Part shown: one piece after another, positions 24,418 through 31,703 of the stretch
How positions within the stretch are numbered: position 1 is the first letter of the stretch
Layout of the letters: every line of letters starts with the position of its first letter
NCBI GenBank assembly: GCA_902586435.1
Contig: CACIHJ010000009.1
Location: 1-41,709 of the forward strand
Length of the DNA: 41,709 nucleotides
Source of the DNA: an uncultured Bacteroidota bacterium
Lineage (GTDB): Bacteria; Bacteroidota; Bacteroidia; Flavobacteriales; Flavobacteriaceae
Direction: 5' to 3'
Program-made: the position numbers and the translations under genes
Notes under the pieces: model-generated
What the model saw: only the letters and a program-made list of their open reading frames with translations
Databases searched by the model: none
What the model was told of the DNA's origin: nothing

Positions 24418-24425
24418 TATATTTG
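24418..24425 (+). promoter_or_regulatory. -7 box of secreted paralogue 1
   Basis: TATATTTG is an exact TAnnTTTG box, 25 nt before the ATG at 24451, predicting a leader of about 20 nt. No TTG is present at 17-23 nt upstream, so recognition may rely on the -7 box or an added activator. Confidence 0.65.
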
Positions 24426-24459
24426 GCGCTTAATCATAAAACAATTTAAAATGAAAAAA
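24418..24459 (+). repeat. 42-bp direct repeat, copy 1 (promoter, leader and first codons)
   Basis: Identical base for base to 25201-25242. It begins with an exact -7 box (TATATTTG, 24418-24425), continues through a leader that includes GGCGCTTAATC, and ends in the ATG and lysine codons of the gene. 33 bases are non-coding. Confidence 0.97.
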
Positions 24460-25146
24460 ATAATTACACTATTACTAATCCTTTCATTGGGATATTCATA
24501 TTCTCAGAATATTTCTTGGAACAGAGTTGATCTATATGTTCCTGGAGATGAAGCTGGAGCTTATTTAGAAGCTATGGATGAGTTTTACTCAAATATTGAA
24601 ATGCCTGAAGGTGTATCGGTATCATTAGTATATTACTTTTACAAACCTGAAGAACAAAAAGCAACTCATGCAATCATATTTGCTGGACCAGTTGATGGTC
24701 TTATAGAGTTAAGACAAATTAGATCTGGGGAGGACTATGAAGCATTTTACGATGATTTGGACGTTTTGGATGCTAAAGTTGTTGCTAATACAGCAGGACA
24801 AAGCTTGATAAGAGTTAATACTGATGCTGAAAGGGGAGACTGGTCACAATCATGGCAATGGCAAGTTGACGATCAAACAATTTTTGCTACTGCTTTTGCA
24901 GAACTTATGGGAAGTTTCAAATCAGTTGAAACATATGTAGCACTTGGTGCAATAACTCAAGGAGTTAGCTCAGATGGTGAAAGTCATTATGTCTATTCAA
25001 ACCAAGGAAGCTTTGCTGATAATTTAAAAGGGGGGCCTCAAAACCAACCTGAAATTGAAGCATTTGAAAAATTTGGTAAAACTGTAGCTCCAATTTCAAC
25101 GTTTCTTGGAACAACAACTGAGATTACGGTTAAGACTTGGAATTAA
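24451..25146 (+). CDS. Secreted protein of unknown family, paralogue 1
   Basis: I do not recognise a named family. The 231-residue protein has a clear signal peptide (MKKIITLLLILSLGYSYSQ, cleavage likely near residue 19), so it is periplasmic or outer-membrane/secreted. The mature part reads as two similar halves, each with the order strand-helix-strand-strand-helix-strand: WNRVDLYV, an EAMDEFYSN helix, VSLVYYFY, THAIIFAG, a helix and SLIRV in the first, and WQWQV to ITVKTW in the second. That is the ferredoxin-like order of dimeric alpha/beta-barrel proteins (ABM or EthD type), but I cannot confirm homology. It is followed by a strong terminator and then by a paralogue with the same leader. 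Base use is less AT-biased than in the neighbours, which may mean high expression. Confidence 0.85.
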   Translation: MKKIITLLLILSLGYSYSQNISWNRVDLYVPGDEAGAYLEAMDEFYSNIEMPEGVSVSLVYYFYKPEEQKATHAIIFAGPVDGLIELRQIRSGEDYEAFYDDLDVLDAKVVANTAGQSLIRVNTDAERGDWSQSWQWQVDDQTIFATAFAELMGSFKSVETYVALGAITQGVSSDGESHYVYSNQGSFADNLKGGPQNQPEIEAFEKFGKTVAPISTFLGTTTEITVKTWN

Positions 25147-25177
25147 AAATTCAAAAATAATTTTAATTTAAAAAATA

Positions 25178-25201
25178 CCCTCTTTTCTAGAGGGTTTTTT
25201 T
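25178..25201 (+). terminator. Intrinsic terminator of paralogue 1
   Basis: The hairpin CCCTCT-TTTCT-AGAGGG (25178-25194) is followed by seven Ts (25195-25201). The last T of the tract is the first base of the -7 box of the next gene, so terminator and promoter share a base. Confidence 0.9.
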
Positions 25202-25208
25202 ATATTTG
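25201..25208 (+). promoter_or_regulatory. -7 box of secreted paralogue 2
   Basis: TATATTTG is an exact TAnnTTTG box inside the second copy of the 42-bp repeat, 25 nt before the ATG at 25234. The preceding gene's terminator occupies the place where a -33 element would be; no TTG is present there. Confidence 0.65.
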
Positions 25209-25242
25209 GCGCTTAATCATAAAACAATTTAAAATGAAAAAA
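25201..25242 (+). repeat. 42-bp direct repeat, copy 2 (promoter, leader and first codons)
   Basis: Identical to 24418-24459 over all 42 bases; identity ends right after six As of the lysine codons. The flanking bases differ on both sides, so the copy boundaries are sharp. Confidence 0.97.
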
Positions 25243-25932
25243 CTATTATTTATTTCTTTAGCTTTTTTAGCATCATATAATATTGCTCAAGCTCAAGAAC
25301 AGATTTATTGGTCTGAAGTATCTATGGAAGTTGAACCTGGAGATCAAGCACAAGTTTACGAAGCAGTAAATAATTTCTATTCAAATCTAGAATTTCCTGA
25401 GAATGTAAGTGTTCAGCTTATGGCATGGCAGGCTAAGACAGAATGGAGAGAAGGTACACACTTCTTAAATTTTGCTGGCTCTGTAGAAGGTATGGCAAAA
25501 TTGAGAGAACTTAGATCAGGAGATGCATATGATGAATATGTTAGTAGCCTTTCGAAAGTTGCAAAAGTAGTTTCTGTTAGAAATGGGAATACATTAATTC
25601 GAGTTCCTGGAGAAAACGGAGACTTTTCTGCACAAGAATGGTCTTTTGCAGTTAAGAATCAAGCCGCTTTTGGTCAAGCTTTTGTTGAATTAACAAAAGA
25701 TTTTAAAAATGAAGGAATGTACTACTCATTAGGTCAGTATACTTCTGGAGGTGGTCTTTCAACTCACTATATTTATTCAACACATAAAGACTATGCCCAA
25801 GAGATGACATCAGGCCCAAAAAATGAAAAAGAAGCTGCTGCTTTTCAAAAGTTTTTTGATGCAGTAGAATCAATTTCTACATTTAGAGGATCTGAAACTT
25901 CAACACAATTGGCAACTTGGCCTTCTAACTAA
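25234..25932 (+). CDS. Secreted protein of unknown family, paralogue 2
   Basis: A 232-residue paralogue of the preceding gene, clearly homologous along its whole length but well diverged (by eye about one third identity). Shared blocks include PGD-A, FYSN-E-PE-VSV, GTHF/ATHA, FAG-V-G, LR--RSG--Y, LIRV and ISTF-G. The signal peptide is MKKLLFISLAFLASYNIAQAQ, cleaved near residue 21. It has the same two-half, ferredoxin-like secondary structure pattern. The protein divergence contrasts with the identical upstream 33 bp. It ends before its own strong terminator, and the glycerol operon follows. The function is unknown; a surface or periplasmic binding role is only a guess. Confidence 0.85.
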   Translation: MKKLLFISLAFLASYNIAQAQEQIYWSEVSMEVEPGDQAQVYEAVNNFYSNLEFPENVSVQLMAWQAKTEWREGTHFLNFAGSVEGMAKLRELRSGDAYDEYVSSLSKVAKVVSVRNGNTLIRVPGENGDFSAQEWSFAVKNQAAFGQAFVELTKDFKNEGMYYSLGQYTSGGGLSTHYIYSTHKDYAQEMTSGPKNEKEAAAFQKFFDAVESISTFRGSETSTQLATWPSN

Positions 25933-25953
25933 TTTATTAGAACATTTAAAAAA

Positions 25954-25980
25954 GCCCTCCTAAAAGAGGGCTTTTTTTTT
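25954..25980 (+). terminator. Intrinsic terminator of paralogue 2
   Basis: The stem GCCCTC/GAGGGC with loop CTAAAA (25954-25971) is followed by nine Ts. It separates the secreted pair from glpK, whose ATG is only 24 nt further on. Confidence 0.92.
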
Positions 25981-26004
25981 ATTAAATTGCATAAAGCCTT
26001 AATT

Positions 26005-27489
26005 ATGGATAAAAAATTTGTTTTAGCAATTGATGCAGGAACTACAAGTTCTAGAGCAATTCTATTTGATAAAAATGGCAAAATTAATGGTGTAGCTCAA
26101 TATGAGTTTACTCAAATCTTTCCAAAAGAAAGTTGGGTAGAACATGATGCTGAAGAAATTTGGGATACTCAATTAAAAGCGATAAATGATGTGTTAAATA
26201 ACTCAAATATTGATATTAATCAGATTGATTCTATTGGAATAACTAATCAAAGAGAGACTACTGTTATATGGGATAAAAAGACAGGAAAGCCTGTTTTTAA
26301 TGCAATTGTATGGCAAGATAGGAGAACAGCTGATTTTTGTGAAGAGCTAATTAAAGAAGGAAAAGATAAAGTTATTCTTGATAAAACAGGCTTGGTTATT
26401 GACGCATACTTTTCTGGAACTAAAATAAAATGGATTCTTGATAAAGAAGAAGAATATAGGTCAAAGGCTAATCAAGGTGAATTAATTTTTGGAACAATTG
26501 ACACATGGTTAATATGGAATCTAACCAAAGGAGAATATCATGTAACTGATCCAAGTAATGCTAGTAGAACTTTGTTGTATAATATTCATGATGATAAATG
26601 GGATGAAGAGCTATTATCTATTTTTAATGTTCCTAAAAATATATTACCTAAAGTTATCGATTCATCTTCATTAATAGTGAAGACAGATAAGAGTTTATTT
26701 GGAGACAGTATACCTATTAGCGGAATAGCGGGTGACCAACAAGCTTCTCTTTTTGGACAATTATGTCTTAATCCAGGTGATGTCAAAAACACCTACGGAA
26801 CTGGATGTTTCTGCGTTATGAATACTGGAGATAAAGTAGTTAAATCAAAAAATAAAATGCTTAGCACTATTGGATGGAGAATTAATGGAAAAATAACATA
26901 TGCTCTAGAAGGAAGTGTTTTTGTTGCAGGGGCATTAGTTCAATGGTTGAGAGATAAACTTGAAATTATTTCAGAGTCATCTGATATTGAAGAATTAGCA
27001 AAAACTGTTGATACAAATGGTGGGATTACATTTATACCTGCATTATCAGGTTTAGGCGCCCCTTACTGGGACCCATTTGCCCAAGGTGCTGTTTTTGGAT
27101 TAAATAGGGGGACTGAAAAAGGCCATATTGCTCGAGCAGCCCTAGAATCTATTGCACTTAGAACAAGAGATATCATAATTGAGATGCAAAAAGATGCTGA
27201 GATTGAATTTAAAAACCTTAAAGTTGATGGAGGGGCTAGTAATAACGATTTATTGATGCAAATTCAATCTAATCTGCTAGGCAACAAAGTTGTTAGACCA
27301 AAAACAACTGAAACAACTGCAATGGGTGTCGCATTCATGGCTGGTCTAGCAACAGGATTTTGGTCAGATATTTCTGAACTAAATAACCTTTGGGAGATGG
27401 ATAAAACATTTAGTCCTAATAAAGATTTTGATTCAAAATCAATAATTGATTTATGGGATAAAAGGATAGTTAAGACACTTTCAGATTAA
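26005..27489 (+). CDS. glpK: Glycerol kinase
   Basis: ATP-dependent phosphorylation of glycerol to sn-glycerol 3-phosphate. It is a FGGY-family kinase, 494 residues from the ATG at 26005. Motifs: AIDAGTTSSRAILFD (phosphate 1 loop), GITNQRETTV, NAIVWQDRRTADFC, GTIDTWLIWNLT, GDQQASLFGQ, KNTYGTGCF and KVDGGASNNDLLMQ. An in-frame TTG at 25987 lies just after the preceding terminator and would add MHKALI; the ATG fits the family start (MDKKFVLAIDAGTTS). It overlaps glpD by one base (TAATG) and heads the glycerol operon. Confidence 0.97.
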   Translation: MDKKFVLAIDAGTTSSRAILFDKNGKINGVAQYEFTQIFPKESWVEHDAEEIWDTQLKAINDVLNNSNIDINQIDSIGITNQRETTVIWDKKTGKPVFNAIVWQDRRTADFCEELIKEGKDKVILDKTGLVIDAYFSGTKIKWILDKEEEYRSKANQGELIFGTIDTWLIWNLTKGEYHVTDPSNASRTLLYNIHDDKWDEELLSIFNVPKNILPKVIDSSSLIVKTDKSLFGDSIPISGIAGDQQASLFGQLCLNPGDVKNTYGTGCFCVMNTGDKVVKSKNKMLSTIGWRINGKITYALEGSVFVAGALVQWLRDKLEIISESSDIEELAKTVDTNGGITFIPALSGLGAPYWDPFAQGAVFGLNRGTEKGHIARAALESIALRTRDIIIEMQKDAEIEFKNLKVDGGASNNDLLMQIQSNLLGNKVVRPKTTETTAMGVAFMAGLATGFWSDISELNNLWEMDKTFSPNKDFDSKSIIDLWDKRIVKTLSD

Positions 27490-29039
27490 TGAATAGAGAT
27501 ACTAATTTAGATAAAATTCAAAGTTTTAATAGACAATGGGATATAGTAATCATTGGAGGTGGAGCTTCTGGTCTTGGAATTGCAGTAGATGCTTCAAAAA
27601 GAGGTTATAGGACTTTACTTCTTGAAAAAAATGACTTTGGAAAAGGTACATCTTCTAGAAGTACAAAGCTAATTCATGGAGGTGTTAGATATCTTCAAAA
27701 TGGAGATATTTCTCTAGTTATTGAGTCTCTTAGAGAGAGGGGGATTTTAAAAAAAAATGCGCCTCATCTAGTTAGAGATCTTAGTTTTGTTATTCCCACA
27801 TATGACTGGTGGAGCAGTCCTTTTTATGGAATAGGTCTTAAAATATATGATATGATGGCTGGATCATTAGGTCTTGGTAAATCTCTTATTCTATCTAAAG
27901 AAGAGACTATTAAATTAATACCTAATGTAAATAAAAAGGGTTTAAGAGGAGGTGTGATATATCATGATGGACAATTTGATGATACTAGAATGGCAATTAG
28001 TCTTGCTCTAACGGCAAATGACCAGAACGCTTGCTTAATTAATTATTGTGAAGTAATAGGTCTTACAAAAGAAGATAATCTTGTTACTGGTCTAGAATTT
28101 AAAGACACAATAAAAAATCAAACCTATGAAATTAAAGCCAAAGTAATAATTAATGCTACAGGTGTATTTGCTGATAAAATAATTAAAATGGATCAACCTA
28201 AATCAAAGAAATTGATTAAACCAAGTCAAGGAGTCCATATTGTTTTAGAAAAAAAGTTTCTAGATAGTCAACATGCAATAATGATACCTCAGACAACTGA
28301 TGGAAGAGTTTTATTTGCAGTTCCATGGAAAAATTATGTCGTTGTAGGAACAACGGATACACAAATTACAGATACATTAGATGAGCCAAAACCATTAAAA
28401 GAAGAAATTAATTTCATCCTTAATAATGCATCTAAGTATATGACTATTAAACCATCTAAAAAAGATATTAAAAGTGTTTTTACAGGTCTAAGACCCCTTG
28501 CTGCAACAAGTAATAAAAAGTCAACTAAAGAAGTATCTAGAAGTCATAAAATTAATATATCCACTACTGGTTTAATTAGCATCTTAGGAGGCAAATGGAC
28601 TACATATAGAAAAATTGCTGAGGATGCAGTGGATGCATCAATATCATTAGGAGGACTAAGGAAAAGAAACTGTAAAACAAAAAATTTGCGTATTCATGGA
28701 TTTAGAAAAAAAGTGGATTGGGATGACCCTCTTCATGTATATGGATCTGATTCAAGAAAATTGAAATCTTATGGAAGTCATAAAGATAATGCCTCGCTAT
28801 CAAAGAAATTTTTTATTTCTAATAGTATTATTCATTGGTCAGTTAAAAAGGAAATGGCAATGACAGTTGAAGATGTTTTAGCTAGAAGAACTAGATGTTT
28901 GTTTTTAGACTCTGAGGAATCTTTAAGAATTGCCCCTCAAGTAGCAAAAAAAATGGCAGAGATTATGGAAAAAGATAAGGCATGGGTAGATGAAGAATTA
29001 AAAAAATTTAATACATTAAGCAAAAATTATAAAGCATGA
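27489..29039 (+). CDS. glpD: Glycerol-3-phosphate dehydrogenase, FAD-dependent
   Basis: Oxidises glycerol 3-phosphate to dihydroxyacetone phosphate, passing electrons to the quinone pool at the inner membrane. The 516-residue protein has the FAD-binding IVIIGGGASGLGIAVDA near residue 20, the family motif GTSSRSTKLIHGGVRYLQ, YHDGQFDDTRMA, and the C-terminal ILGGKWTTYRKIAEDAVD, followed by the TVEDVLARRTRCLFLD DAO_C signature. Its start overlaps the glpK stop and its stop overlaps the glpF start (ATGA), so the three are coupled. Confidence 0.97.
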   Translation: MNRDTNLDKIQSFNRQWDIVIIGGGASGLGIAVDASKRGYRTLLLEKNDFGKGTSSRSTKLIHGGVRYLQNGDISLVIESLRERGILKKNAPHLVRDLSFVIPTYDWWSSPFYGIGLKIYDMMAGSLGLGKSLILSKEETIKLIPNVNKKGLRGGVIYHDGQFDDTRMAISLALTANDQNACLINYCEVIGLTKEDNLVTGLEFKDTIKNQTYEIKAKVIINATGVFADKIIKMDQPKSKKLIKPSQGVHIVLEKKFLDSQHAIMIPQTTDGRVLFAVPWKNYVVVGTTDTQITDTLDEPKPLKEEINFILNNASKYMTIKPSKKDIKSVFTGLRPLAATSNKKSTKEVSRSHKINISTTGLISILGGKWTTYRKIAEDAVDASISLGGLRKRNCKTKNLRIHGFRKKVDWDDPLHVYGSDSRKLKSYGSHKDNASLSKKFFISNSIIHWSVKKEMAMTVEDVLARRTRCLFLDSEESLRIAPQVAKKMAEIMEKDKAWVDEELKKFNTLSKNYKA

Positions 29040-29782
29040 TAACTAATCCTTATATAGCAGAATTTATTGGTACAGCTATTCTATTATTTCTTGGAAATGG
29101 AATTGTTGCTAATGTTAGTTTGAATAAAACTAAAGCATCTAAACAGATGACGCCTTGGATTTTAATTACTACAGCATGGGGTCTTGCTGTTTTTACTGCT
29201 GCATTTATAACTGGTCAATTTAGTGGAGCACATCTTAATCCAGCAGTTACTCTAGGTCTTGCATTTGCAGGAAAATTTTCTACAGAACTTATCTGTGGGT
29301 ATATTATATCACAGTTACTGGGTGGAATATTTGGTAGTTGGCTAGTTTATATTATTTATATAGATCATTATAGAGAAACTTCAGATGAAAGCTCTGTAAT
29401 GGGAACATTTTGTACTTCTCCAGCAATAAGAAACTACAAGAATAATTTCTTTAGTGAGTTAATGGGAACATTTGTTCTTGTTTTTGGTGTTTTATATATG
29501 GCCAAACCAAATATAATTATTGAAGGCACAAGTGTTGAAAATTTTGGAATTGGTGCACTGGAAGCCCTTCCTGTAGGATTATTGGTTTGGGTAATTGGAT
29601 TAAGCTTAGGAGGAACTACCGGATATGCAATAAACCCTGCAAGAGATCTTGGTCCAAGAATTACTTATCAACTTCTTCCAAGAAAAAATAAAATCTCTGA
29701 CTGGGCTTATAGTTGGGTACCTGTTTTAGGGCCTTTATGTGGTGGTGCTCTAGCTGGATTATTATTTGTATTTCTTCAATAA
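29036..29782 (+). CDS. glpF: Glycerol uptake facilitator (aquaglyceroporin)
   Basis: Passive glycerol channel of the MIP family in the inner membrane. The 248-residue protein has six hydrophobic segments and both NPA boxes: SGAHLNPAVTLG and GYAINPARDLGPR, the latter with the Asp after NPAR that marks glycerol channels over pure water channels. AEFIGTAILLFLGNG at the N-terminus is the usual first helix. Its ATG overlaps the glpD TGA. It feeds glycerol to GlpK and GlpD. Confidence 0.96.
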   Translation: MITNPYIAEFIGTAILLFLGNGIVANVSLNKTKASKQMTPWILITTAWGLAVFTAAFITGQFSGAHLNPAVTLGLAFAGKFSTELICGYIISQLLGGIFGSWLVYIIYIDHYRETSDESSVMGTFCTSPAIRNYKNNFFSELMGTFVLVFGVLYMAKPNIIIEGTSVENFGIGALEALPVGLLVWVIGLSLGGTTGYAINPARDLGPRITYQLLPRKNKISDWAYSWVPVLGPLCGGALAGLLFVFLQ

Positions 29783-29789
29783 TTATTAA

Positions 29790-30554
29790 TTGGAAAAAAA
29801 TAAATTAAAACAAATTGCATTAATTACTGGTGCAACCTCAGGTATAGGAGAAGCAACAGCAAAAAGATTAGCTAATCGCTTCTCTTTAATTCTTTGTGGA
29901 AGAAGAGAAGAAAAGCTTTTTGAGCTTTCTAACTCTCTTTCTAATTTAACAACTGTAAAGACATTAACCTTTGATGTAAGAAATAAGGATGATGTTATAG
30001 ACAAGCTTAAAGGATTAGAAGGTGAATGGAAAAACATAGCCATTCTAATAAATAATGCAGGAAATGCTCATGGACTTGATTTTATCCATGAAGGAGACAT
30101 TGAAGACTGGGATATGATGATTGATACTAATGTAAAAGGATTGCTATATGTATCTAGAGAAGTTTTACAGACAATGGTTAAGAACAATAGTGGTCATATA
30201 ATTAATATTGGTTCAATTGCTGGCAAAGAAGTTTATCCTAAAGGGAATATCTATTGTGCTTCAAAATTTGCTGTTGATGCTATATCTCAAGGAATGAGGA
30301 TTGATTTAAATAAGCATAATATAAAAGTATCTCAAATAAATCCTGGTCTAGTAGAAACAAACTTTTCAATGGTTAGGTTTAAGGATGATGAGGAAAGATC
30401 AAAAGCAGTATATAAAGATGTTAATCCCCTAGTTTCTGAAGATATAGCTAATGTAATTGATTATGTTATATCAAGTCCAGAGAATGTTAACATCAGTGAT
30501 ATTACTGTACTTGCAAAATCTCAAGCATCTTCAACGGTAATTAATAGAGATTAA
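29790..30554 (+). CDS. SDR family oxidoreductase, YdfG-like 3-hydroxy acid dehydrogenase
   Basis: An NAD(P)-dependent SDR of 254 residues: cofactor loop TGATSGIGEATAKRLA, GRREEKL, NNAGNAHGLD, INIGSIAGKEVYPKG with the catalytic Ser, YCASKFAVDAISQGMR (Tyr, Lys), INPGLVETNFS and the C-terminal QASSTVINR. This pattern is like YdfG-type serine/3-hydroxy acid dehydrogenases. The only start in reach is TTG at 29790, because the glycine loop begins about ten codons later and no ATG lies between it and glpF. It sits 7 bp after glpF and ends at a terminator, so it belongs to the glycerol transcript; the substrate is not known. Confidence 0.88.
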   Translation: MEKNKLKQIALITGATSGIGEATAKRLANRFSLILCGRREEKLFELSNSLSNLTTVKTLTFDVRNKDDVIDKLKGLEGEWKNIAILINNAGNAHGLDFIHEGDIEDWDMMIDTNVKGLLYVSREVLQTMVKNNSGHIINIGSIAGKEVYPKGNIYCASKFAVDAISQGMRIDLNKHNIKVSQINPGLVETNFSMVRFKDDEERSKAVYKDVNPLVSEDIANVIDYVISSPENVNISDITVLAKSQASSTVINRD

Positions 30555-30617: not shown

Positions 30618-31115
30618 TTATCCTTCATCAGATGGAGGGAGTATATCTCTGTTATATACAATAATTAAATCAACCAATCCATCAGTAATTCTTAAATCAA
30701 GCATTTGTGATGAATTTGATTCAACACCATCAATAGTTTGTGTGGTAACATGTGCTGCTATAACCCATGTTTCTGCATTTTTCACACCTACATAAGGCAT
30801 CCCCCAGAAAGGGTTAAATGAAGGGTTTGTTTGATCAAACCATGATTGAAGAGACTCTAACTGTTCAGCTCTTCCCTCAGTTTGTCTTCCATCAGCATGC
30901 CAAATTTGAATATCTTCAGACATTAAAGACTTAATGGCTTCGATATCTTGAGCATTATGAGCGTCCATAAATTGATTATAGACATCAGTTGATTCTGATG
31001 GTCCAGCAACAAAAGTTTCATCTCCTTCTCCTCCAGCCCAAAAACCATGGCCTTCAGTAACAGGAGCATTACATCCAATAGCAATTAATGCTAATAATAG
31101 TATAAGTTTTTTCAT
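30618..31115 (-). CDS. SnoaL/NTF2-like (DUF4440-type) lipoprotein
   Basis: A 165-residue protein with a lipoprotein signal (MKKLILLLALIAIGC, lipid-bearing Cys at residue 15) and a cystatin-like NTF2 fold: an N-terminal helix YNQFMDAHNAQDIEAIKSLM, then DIQIWHADGRQTEG and a C-terminal sheet ending VDLIIVYNRDILPP. The fold hosts many enzymes and binding proteins; no specific function can be given. A Gly-rich mature N-terminus (GHGFWAGGEGDE) precedes the fold. It stands alone, divergent from the azurin gene, and shares the terminator with the glycerol operon. Confidence 0.82.
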   Translation of the reverse strand: MKKLILLLALIAIGCNAPVTEGHGFWAGGEGDETFVAGPSESTDVYNQFMDAHNAQDIEAIKSLMSEDIQIWHADGRQTEGRAEQLESLQSWFDQTNPSFNPFWGMPYVGVKNAETWVIAAHVTTQTIDGVESNSSQMLDLRITDGLVDLIIVYNRDILPPSDEG

Positions 31116-31202: not shown

Positions 31203-31703
31203 ATGAAATCTACAAACTTTTATTTTATCATTGCAGTTCTTTTGTTATCATGTAATCAAAAGCCAAAAAAAGAGAAATTTCAATATGAACGTATTCAAGA
31301 AAATTCTTCTGAAGTTATCCAAAATAATAATATCGGAAACACAATTATCTTAAACTCTAATGATGCAATGCTCTTTGACAAAAAAGTAATAAAAGTTAGT
31401 TCTGGTGAACAAGTAACACTTACATTAAATCATGTAGGACAAATTGCCAAAGACTTCATGGGACATAATTTTGTATTATTAAAAAAAGGTGTTGATGTTG
31501 ATGACTTTGGACAAAGAGCAATATTAGCTAGAGATAATGATTATATTCCAGAAGGTGATGACATTATTGTTACTACAAAAATGTTAGGTGGAGGGGAGAC
31601 TGATACAATAGTTTTTGATGCACCTGAACCTGGAAAATATATTTTTATATGCACATTCCCAGGACATTATCAATTGATGCAAGGAGAATTTATTGTTCTT
31701 TAA
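31203..31703 (+). CDS. Azurin-like blue copper lipoprotein
   Basis: A cupredoxin electron carrier. From the ATG at 31203 it has 166 residues with a lipoprotein signal (lipobox Cys17 in LLLSC) and a charged linker, then the azurin domain. The type 1 copper ligands are all visible: H88 in MGHNFV, and C150, H155 and M159 in ICTFPGHYQLM. The mature N-terminus would be lipid-anchored, probably on the periplasmic side. It likely shuttles electrons to a cytochrome oxidase or peroxidase encoded elsewhere. It ends 3 bp before the opposite-strand tRNA. Confidence 0.92.
   Translation: MKSTNFYFIIAVLLLSCNQKPKKEKFQYERIQENSSEVIQNNNIGNTIILNSNDAMLFDKKVIKVSSGEQVTLTLNHVGQIAKDFMGHNFVLLKKGVDVDDFGQRAILARDNDYIPEGDDIIVTTKMLGGGETDTIVFDAPEPGKYIFICTFPGHYQLMQGEFIVL

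Follow-up and report, generated by a model that had tools for sequence, protein, structure and literature searches.

An unnamed family of fused two-half proteins, probably of alpha/beta-barrel fold, encoded directly upstream of glpK in a genus of Flavobacteriaceae

The stretch of DNA analysed here (the window, 41,709 nucleotides) belongs to a flavobacterial genome bin of 1.02 Mb in 24 contigs that is 84% complete. Two adjacent open reading frames on the forward strand, gene 1 (P0001; 24451..25146, 231 amino acids) and gene 2 (P0002; 25234..25932, 232 amino acids), coincide with a pair singled out in the original prediction, and each encodes a protein of two halves. They are followed on the same strand by glpK, which specifies a glycerol kinase of the FGGY family (26005..27489; the open reading frame list begins at a TTG at 25987), glpD for glycerol-3-phosphate dehydrogenase (27489..29039; DAO and DAO_C), a glpF-type aquaporin gene (29036..29782; MIP), and, 3′ of the aquaporin gene, a short-chain dehydrogenase gene (29790..30554). 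Upstream of gene 1, the opposite strand encodes a DUF456 protein, a thioesterase, a sodium:solute symporter and acetyl-CoA synthetase, so that the pair does lie, as predicted, between an acetate module on the acetyl-CoA synthetase side and a glycerol module on the GlpK/GlpD side. Of 16 distinct glpK neighbourhoods, 13 have a homologue of the short-chain dehydrogenase on the upstream side of the family gene(s) too, an arrangement absent from the window. Likewise absent from the window is a glycerophosphodiesterase-like lipoprotein gene (cluster 14) that follows the glp operon at nine loci in eight genomes. A third family copy of the same genome lies on contig C1, flanked by anmK and nhaD clusters. 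The names anmK, nhaD, folC, glycerophosphodiesterase, thioredoxin-like and threonine dehydratase were assigned by eye from the sequences.

Beyond the glp genes, the window holds a plastocyanin/azurin-type copper protein gene at 31203-31703 (+; PF00127, E 4e-14) and, at 30618-31115 (-), a SnoaL-like (DUF4440) gene whose product has, by eye, a lipoprotein-type leader. SnoaL-like genes recur near family genes, also at L043, L044, L046, L068 and L070, and L068 has two of them, 39 and 42 bases ahead of two family genes. Exported SnoaL-like lipoproteins were considered as a partner of the family and set aside, strong matches being present in only 6 of 44 stretches (39 of them with a family gene), which is too few.

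The products of genes 1 and 2 are cysteine-free paralogues that are 42% identical. Both start with MKK, followed by a hydrophobic stretch and then SQ or AQ, and probable signal peptides were read by eye from the sequence at residues 1-18 of gene 1 (24451..24504, +) and residues 1-20 of gene 2 (25234..25293, +). Both leaders look right by eye, and the signal peptides of the original prediction support export without proving it. No type IX C-terminal sorting domain family is among the matches of either window protein, and 'secreted', as they had been described, is for this reason probably better read as periplasmic. Conservation was followed in alignments of 42 rows (A1), of the 21 closest members (A2) and of 74 rows (A7), the last composed of 35 of the 42 rows of A1, 18 of 22 selected members and all 21 of a further set, with further matches from a 397-genome sample left out. 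In gene 1 the N half (24505..24828, +) carries a conserved T72-H73 (His codon 24667-24669) and the C half (24829..25143, +) carries H179 (codon 24985-24987); the corresponding histidines of gene 2 are H76 (codon 25459-25461) in the N half (25294..25617, +) and H178 (codon 25765-25767) in the C half (25618..25929, +). By gene 2 numbering, H76 is present in 42/42 rows of A1 and 72/74 rows of A7, and H178 in 36/42 and 60/74, respectively. K2 is invariant in all 74 aligned members, and the glycines G118 and G172 are kept in 68 and 70 of the 74 rows. Apart from one histidine and two glycines, few positions are kept family-wide in A7, whose rows fall as low as 13% identity to gene 2. Seven orthologue pairs indicate purifying selection (dN 0.10-0.19, dS 0.8-1.9, dN/dS 0.06-0.15), with dS near saturation.

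A tree was built from 42 members, minus the short L047_12017 and plus seven others; genome G172 is absent from it. Members from the genus of the window fall into four groups, each tied to its own chromosomal place: a glpK-side group of 18 rows (17 different), which contains gene 2 and has support of 81/61 as a whole and 99/97 for 14 rows; a second, diverged group that is also on the glpK side (7 rows, 100/100); a group at the anmK-nhaD locus (12 rows, 100/99); and a group preceding a thioredoxin-like gene (5 rows, 99/100), which contains gene 1. The original prediction had treated the pair as one unit, a view that the tree does not uphold. Recent tandem duplication giving two genes that act as a pair would account for their adjacency and for the identity of 42 bases around their start codons, and is nonetheless extremely unlikely given the low identity of the proteins and the different loci of their nearest relatives. 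Gene 1 groups with L043-L046 (99/100), loci with no glp genes in view. In four other genomes of the genus its orthologue precedes two genes, one thioredoxin-like and one threonine dehydratase-like, and three of these four loci also have DUF456 nearby. Gene 2 groups with L019/L058 and L060 (100/99), which lie upstream of glpK, and in genome G161 both gene kinds are present on separate contigs. Membership of separate, locus-tied groups marks genes 1 and 2 as old paralogues of two different loci, and the pair would most simply have formed by the joining of these loci rather than by duplication.

Expression signals can be recognised for both genes. Intrinsic terminators are predicted after gene 1 (25177..25195, +; folding z-score -3.4, terminator-like on the other strand too) and between gene 2 and glpK (25948..25977, +; z-score -4.1), and a scan counted three terminator-like sites where shuffled sequence gave 1.1 +/- 1.2. 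The promoter-like TATATTTG, the 5′ leader and the first codons of gene 1 make up 42 bases (24418..24459, +) that recur identically before and into gene 2 (25201..25242, +); when 32 of these bases were looked for across the genome bin, at up to three mismatches, no place beyond these two came up. TATATTTG stands 25 bases before the ATG of both genes, and TATATTAG or a similar sequence precedes a number of relatives; sequences of this type we take to be a Bacteroidota promoter element. Within its own group, gene 2 has a leader similar to the ones in L060 and L062, and the orthologues of gene 1 have a different leader. The identical 42 bases, together with the different leader of the gene 1 orthologues, suggest recombination, in which, on the simplest reading, gene 1 took over the promoter and leader of gene 2. 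By codon adaptation to 26 ribosomal-region open reading frames, gene 2 comes 5th among the 42 window open reading frames and gene 1 comes 22nd, and the third copy ranks first of 12 in its stretch; since the reference frames themselves score only 0.65-0.77, this measure hardly discriminates. The prediction of abundant products therefore keeps the terminators and promoter-like starts in its favour and loses codon usage as an argument for both genes.

The association with glycerol genes was first counted in neighbourhoods chosen for holding a family gene, which biases the count, and a recount was started from glpK. The glpK gene is present in 19 of 25 genomes of the genus, and 17 of these 19 (16 genomes, L019 and L058 being the same contig, plus G172) have a family gene immediately before it, in the same orientation and at a distance of 35-80 bases. 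One of the remaining two lacks upstream sequence and the other has no family gene there. The upstream gene belongs to the group of gene 2 in 14 of 16 genomes; in G170 and G160 a gene of the diverged group stands directly before glpK and the member of gene 2's group one gene further away. In G151 the contig ends before glpK, and in G155 (L083), whose GlpK is 93% identical to that of the window, about 160 bases separate DUF456 from glpK with no family gene between them. The family gene is thus linked to glpK in one genus, and a member that nearly always stands just before the glycerol-use genes of close relatives is therefore a real, conserved piece of these bacteria. Among 15 genomes from other families, three have glpK and none has a family member, and comparison with the genes of the genus itself revealed no glp gene in the 15 neighbourhoods taken outside it; of 31 neighbours outside the genus, 10 were scanned with Pfam.

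The distribution of the family is narrow. With gene 1 as query, 22 of the 25 genus genomes (its own included; bins of 0.8-1.3 Mb) have one to four matches, and none of 15 genomes from other families of the order has a member. The 42-row profile matches 47 of 397 genomes from the taxonomic family of the window, with up to six matches per genome. Thirty of the 47 do not exceed 2.4 Mb, a count that carries no claim of enrichment, since sizes are listed for only a minority of the non-matching genomes; the 15 genomes with at least three matches all stay within 2.2 Mb. Presence in 22 of 25 genus genomes and the small size of all 15 multi-match genomes indicate that the gene is probably useful in small marine genomes. 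A sample of 395 genomes from the phylum gave three matching genomes per profile, all from the taxonomic family of the window and one of them a weak N-terminal match. Plasmid collections and viral contigs held no relative, and a scan of genome contigs with a single protein gave one locus. A family member in another genus (G715:C9:7307-7981) is broken by several stop codons, which shows that copies do decay and that matches are not always intact genes.

Similarity between the two halves, a central element of the original prediction, was borne out by comparing them as profiles with hhalign (N half, gene 2 residues 21-128; C half, 129-232; rows with 40 or fewer residues in a segment omitted). With 42 rows the halves align over 88 columns with a score of 39.2 (P 6.6e-7), against 9.4 for a reversed C half, 15.8 for the best of 60 column shuffles, and 19-31 for four circular shifts of the C half, in which long stretches stay intact. 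The 74-row alignment raises the score to 53.1 over 96 columns (P 3.8e-10), and the 21 closest rows give a weak match (22.7, 35 columns, P 0.0021, probability 13%). The Thr-His of the N half aligns on the Thr-His of the C half. From these profile comparisons, the two halves of each protein are judged homologous and the internal duplication real.

The fold was examined with one AlphaFold model per gene, both built from the same three sequences, with gene 1 modelled as the mature protein. An alignment of the halves made with MAFFT (A5) for a half-domain model had misaligned Thr-His motifs and was dropped in favour of mature gene 1. Model quality is low (gene 2, pLDDT 52 and pTM 0.45; gene 1, pLDDT 49 and pTM 0.37), and the relative placing of the halves is unreliable, with TM of 0.3-0.4 to full-length matches. 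Both low-confidence models nevertheless give the order strand-helix-strand-strand-helix-helix-strand twice, gene 1 having an extra four-residue helix in its C half. The top Foldseek rows are WhiE-ORFI, 3f44 and 2pgc (ranks 3-5) for gene 2 and 2pgc (E 9.0e-6) for gene 1; 2PGC, 3f44, WhiE-ORFI and coproheme decarboxylase are within the first 22 rows for both. VIA-align placed gene 2 residues 22-121 on the ABM protein 9lmm (Z 10.5, 2.5 A, 94 residues) and residues 129-228 on PA0709 (Z 8.8, 3.4 A, 93 residues), the sole C-half row of 50. The best result for the gene 1 model was its N half on ABM at Z 8.4, which is borderline because a Z below 8 can reflect a common arrangement. An ABM-like alpha/beta-barrel fold in each half is therefore probable on these models, in line with the ABM/EthD-like fold first proposed; the models are of low confidence, and other ferredoxin-like folds match them as well, including ACT domains, ribosomal protein S6 and peptidase lid domains.

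The family is an unnamed one, and its fold class is probably a known one. As originally claimed, its members match no named family convincingly: none was found in Pfam or NCBIfam for the window proteins or any of 42 members, and profiles A1, A2 and A7 retrieved only chance rows from PDB sequences, mostly antibody heavy chains (best E 0.027, an antibody). Scattered Pfam and NCBIfam rows among the 42 members (DUF4624, AIRC, purE, TraH and others; E 0.0046-1) were below cut-off, and a shikimate dehydrogenase row in NCBIfam (E 8.5e-4, one member of 74) was taken as chance. The window proteins match no ABM, Dabb, EthD or NIPSNAP profile in Pfam. These four are not among the 11 families matched by the 42 members, and ABM, Dabb and EthD are not among the best 25 of 33 Pfam families for the 74 members (for NCBIfam the best 25 of 27 were considered). 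Only L198, one member of 74, passes the NIPSNAP cut-off, by 0.7 bits (23.0 against 22.3, E 9.3e-5) and over part of the C half; profile comparison did not confirm this match. Searches among open-licence PMC papers yielded no description of the family, its Thr-His signature or its place before glpK.

It is against this background that the genes could be seen as plain ABM, Dabb or NIPSNAP members, too diverged for the models of those families and with nothing new beyond export, a reading that appears unlikely. The L198 match, matches to NIPSNAP at E up to 0.5 in 6 of 74 members, and a Thr-His at a similar place in two Dabb sequences (L105 and L107, by eye) speak for such an origin. Profile comparison of each half, recommended in the original prediction, gave a mixed answer. 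Against ABM, the 42-row halves score 14.5 and 14.7, inside a null with a maximum of 17.25 in 82 comparisons; with 74 rows the N half reaches 22.6 (P 8.5e-4, the null being from 42-row halves only) and the C half 12.6. Against Dabb, the C half slightly exceeds the null maximum at 19.6 with 42 rows and falls to 15.4 with 74, whereas the N half scores 12.0 and 10.8; as a yardstick, the Dabb and ABM profiles score 40 against each other. From the 30 loci taken for each family, 9 of Dabb and 5 of ABM were left out of these profiles because their strand or length was unclear. The halves score 10.1 and 15.7 against a NIPSNAP profile of 12 sequences only (2 of 14 loci were unused, and 2 others had no full-length read), and the full-length family profile scores 20.1 (P 0.034) against six tandem NIPSNAP proteins, a small set. 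At profile level, then, the family is linked to ABM, Dabb and NIPSNAP suggestively at most, or not at all.

Comparison with known systems places the proteins more closely. Tandem NIPSNAP proteins (PF07978), represented in a 99-genome Bacteroidota sample by three open reading frames with two matches each (G260, G233 and G194), resemble the family in their two-part chain, with two NIPSNAP matches in 242-283 amino acids, and in a hydrophobic leader, seen by eye in reads L215, L216 and L219; they differ in that half-profile scores against 12 NIPSNAP sequences are at noise level. The claim that no exported fused member was known does not hold, given these proteins, and the fused exported architecture is therefore not new in kind within the phylum. 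The marine metagenome protein 2PGC (JCVI_PEP_1096685590403, 203-206 residues), which we take to be a two-domain alpha/beta-barrel, resembles the family in length and marine source and as a top Foldseek match, yet is only 10-13% identical, with TM of 0.33-0.37 and no sequence-profile match at E up to 10. ABM proteins (PF03992; SnoaB, PA0709, 9lmm) provide the best fold matches of the halves, at Z 8.4-10.5 on low-confidence models. They are single-domain, mostly cytoplasmic dimers, whereas family members are fused, carry a leader and lack a Pfam match. Dabb stress-responsive A/B-barrel proteins (PF07876), despite the similar Thr-His, are set apart by the profile scores given above. A table in PMC3608174 lists an ABM protein from a periplasmic fraction, with a Tat prediction and without a note of cleavage.

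In ABM, Dabb and EthD proteins the barrel is made by two chains. Fusion of two homologous ABM-like half-domains would allow one chain to form the barrel, in an exported and probably periplasmic protein. Its pocket, to which the N half would contribute its nearly invariant Thr-His (H76 in gene 2) and the C half the counterpart H178, may hold a small organic compound, and conversion of that compound would most likely be cofactor-free, by histidine acid-base chemistry. Gene 2, beside glpK, would act on a compound encountered when glycerol or glycerolipids are used, and gene 1, as an old paralogue, would have another partner compound. Judged from the glp context, the compound may be a glycerol or glycerolipid product, and the glycerophosphodiesterase-like gene after the operon in eight genomes can be cited here. 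The reading preferred, tentatively and at somewhat less than even confidence, is therefore a periplasmic single-chain barrel that binds and most likely converts a small compound of glycerol or glycerolipid use; pocket, chemistry and role in glycerol use are all conjectural. It is favoured by the alignment of Thr-His on Thr-His, the retained histidine, the same order in both models, the linkage to glpK and the low dN/dS. The poor models, the merely suggestive profile links and the restriction of the glp link to this genus count against it, and a glp role is further weakened by G155, which keeps glpK without the gene, by the terminator that parts gene 2 from glpK, and by G170 and G160, where the diverged group is next to glpK.

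A periplasmic binding or scavenging protein of the same fold, which would take up a hydrophobic or aldehyde-like compound in its pocket only to hand it on or to stop it from doing harm, is possible and nearly as likely as conversion; several paralogues would then cover several compounds. Up to six matches per genome and the paucity of family-wide kept positions fit this role, as do the terminator and promoter-like start before a catabolic operon, an arrangement by which exported binding proteins are frequently produced in excess of their transporters. Against it, a histidine retained in 72/74 rows, including some of 13-20% identity, is more readily understood as an active residue than as part of a binding surface, and no transporter is constant across the different loci (names partly by eye). 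Coproheme decarboxylase, chlorite dismutase and DyP peroxidase also consist of ferredoxin-like halves, and a haem protein related to them would explain the conserved histidines, the similar length and the Foldseek ranks of coproheme decarboxylase (6 for gene 2, 15 for gene 1). This role is very unlikely: no PDB sequence match supports it, and the histidine pattern differs. The haem-binding histidine of the coproheme decarboxylase/chlorite dismutase superfamily is in the C-terminal half, whereas the best-kept histidine of the family is in the N half and that of the C half is missing in 14/74 rows.

The broadest formulation sees the proteins as periplasmic enzymes of a new family, each a single-chain alpha/beta-barrel, with locus-fixed paralogues of which one serves an undescribed periplasmic step of glycerol or glycerolipid use in streamlined marine Flavobacteria; as a whole it is rather doubtful. 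The regular place before glpK offers a first testable hypothesis on the role of the family, and the fused exported form would widen the alpha/beta-barrel superfamily outside the cytoplasm. A further tandem pair in the same genome (L213, contig C7; 721-1479 and 1501-2268) encodes proteins of 253 and 256 amino acids with leaders and without a Pfam match at E 0.01. The pair reached E 4.1e-6 with the 74-row profile and gave no match once signal peptides were excluded from the profile, and was not accepted as part of the family. It resembles, by eye, L075_10782 and L070_6040, which sit in stretches that hold family members, and possibly represents another exported two-half family.
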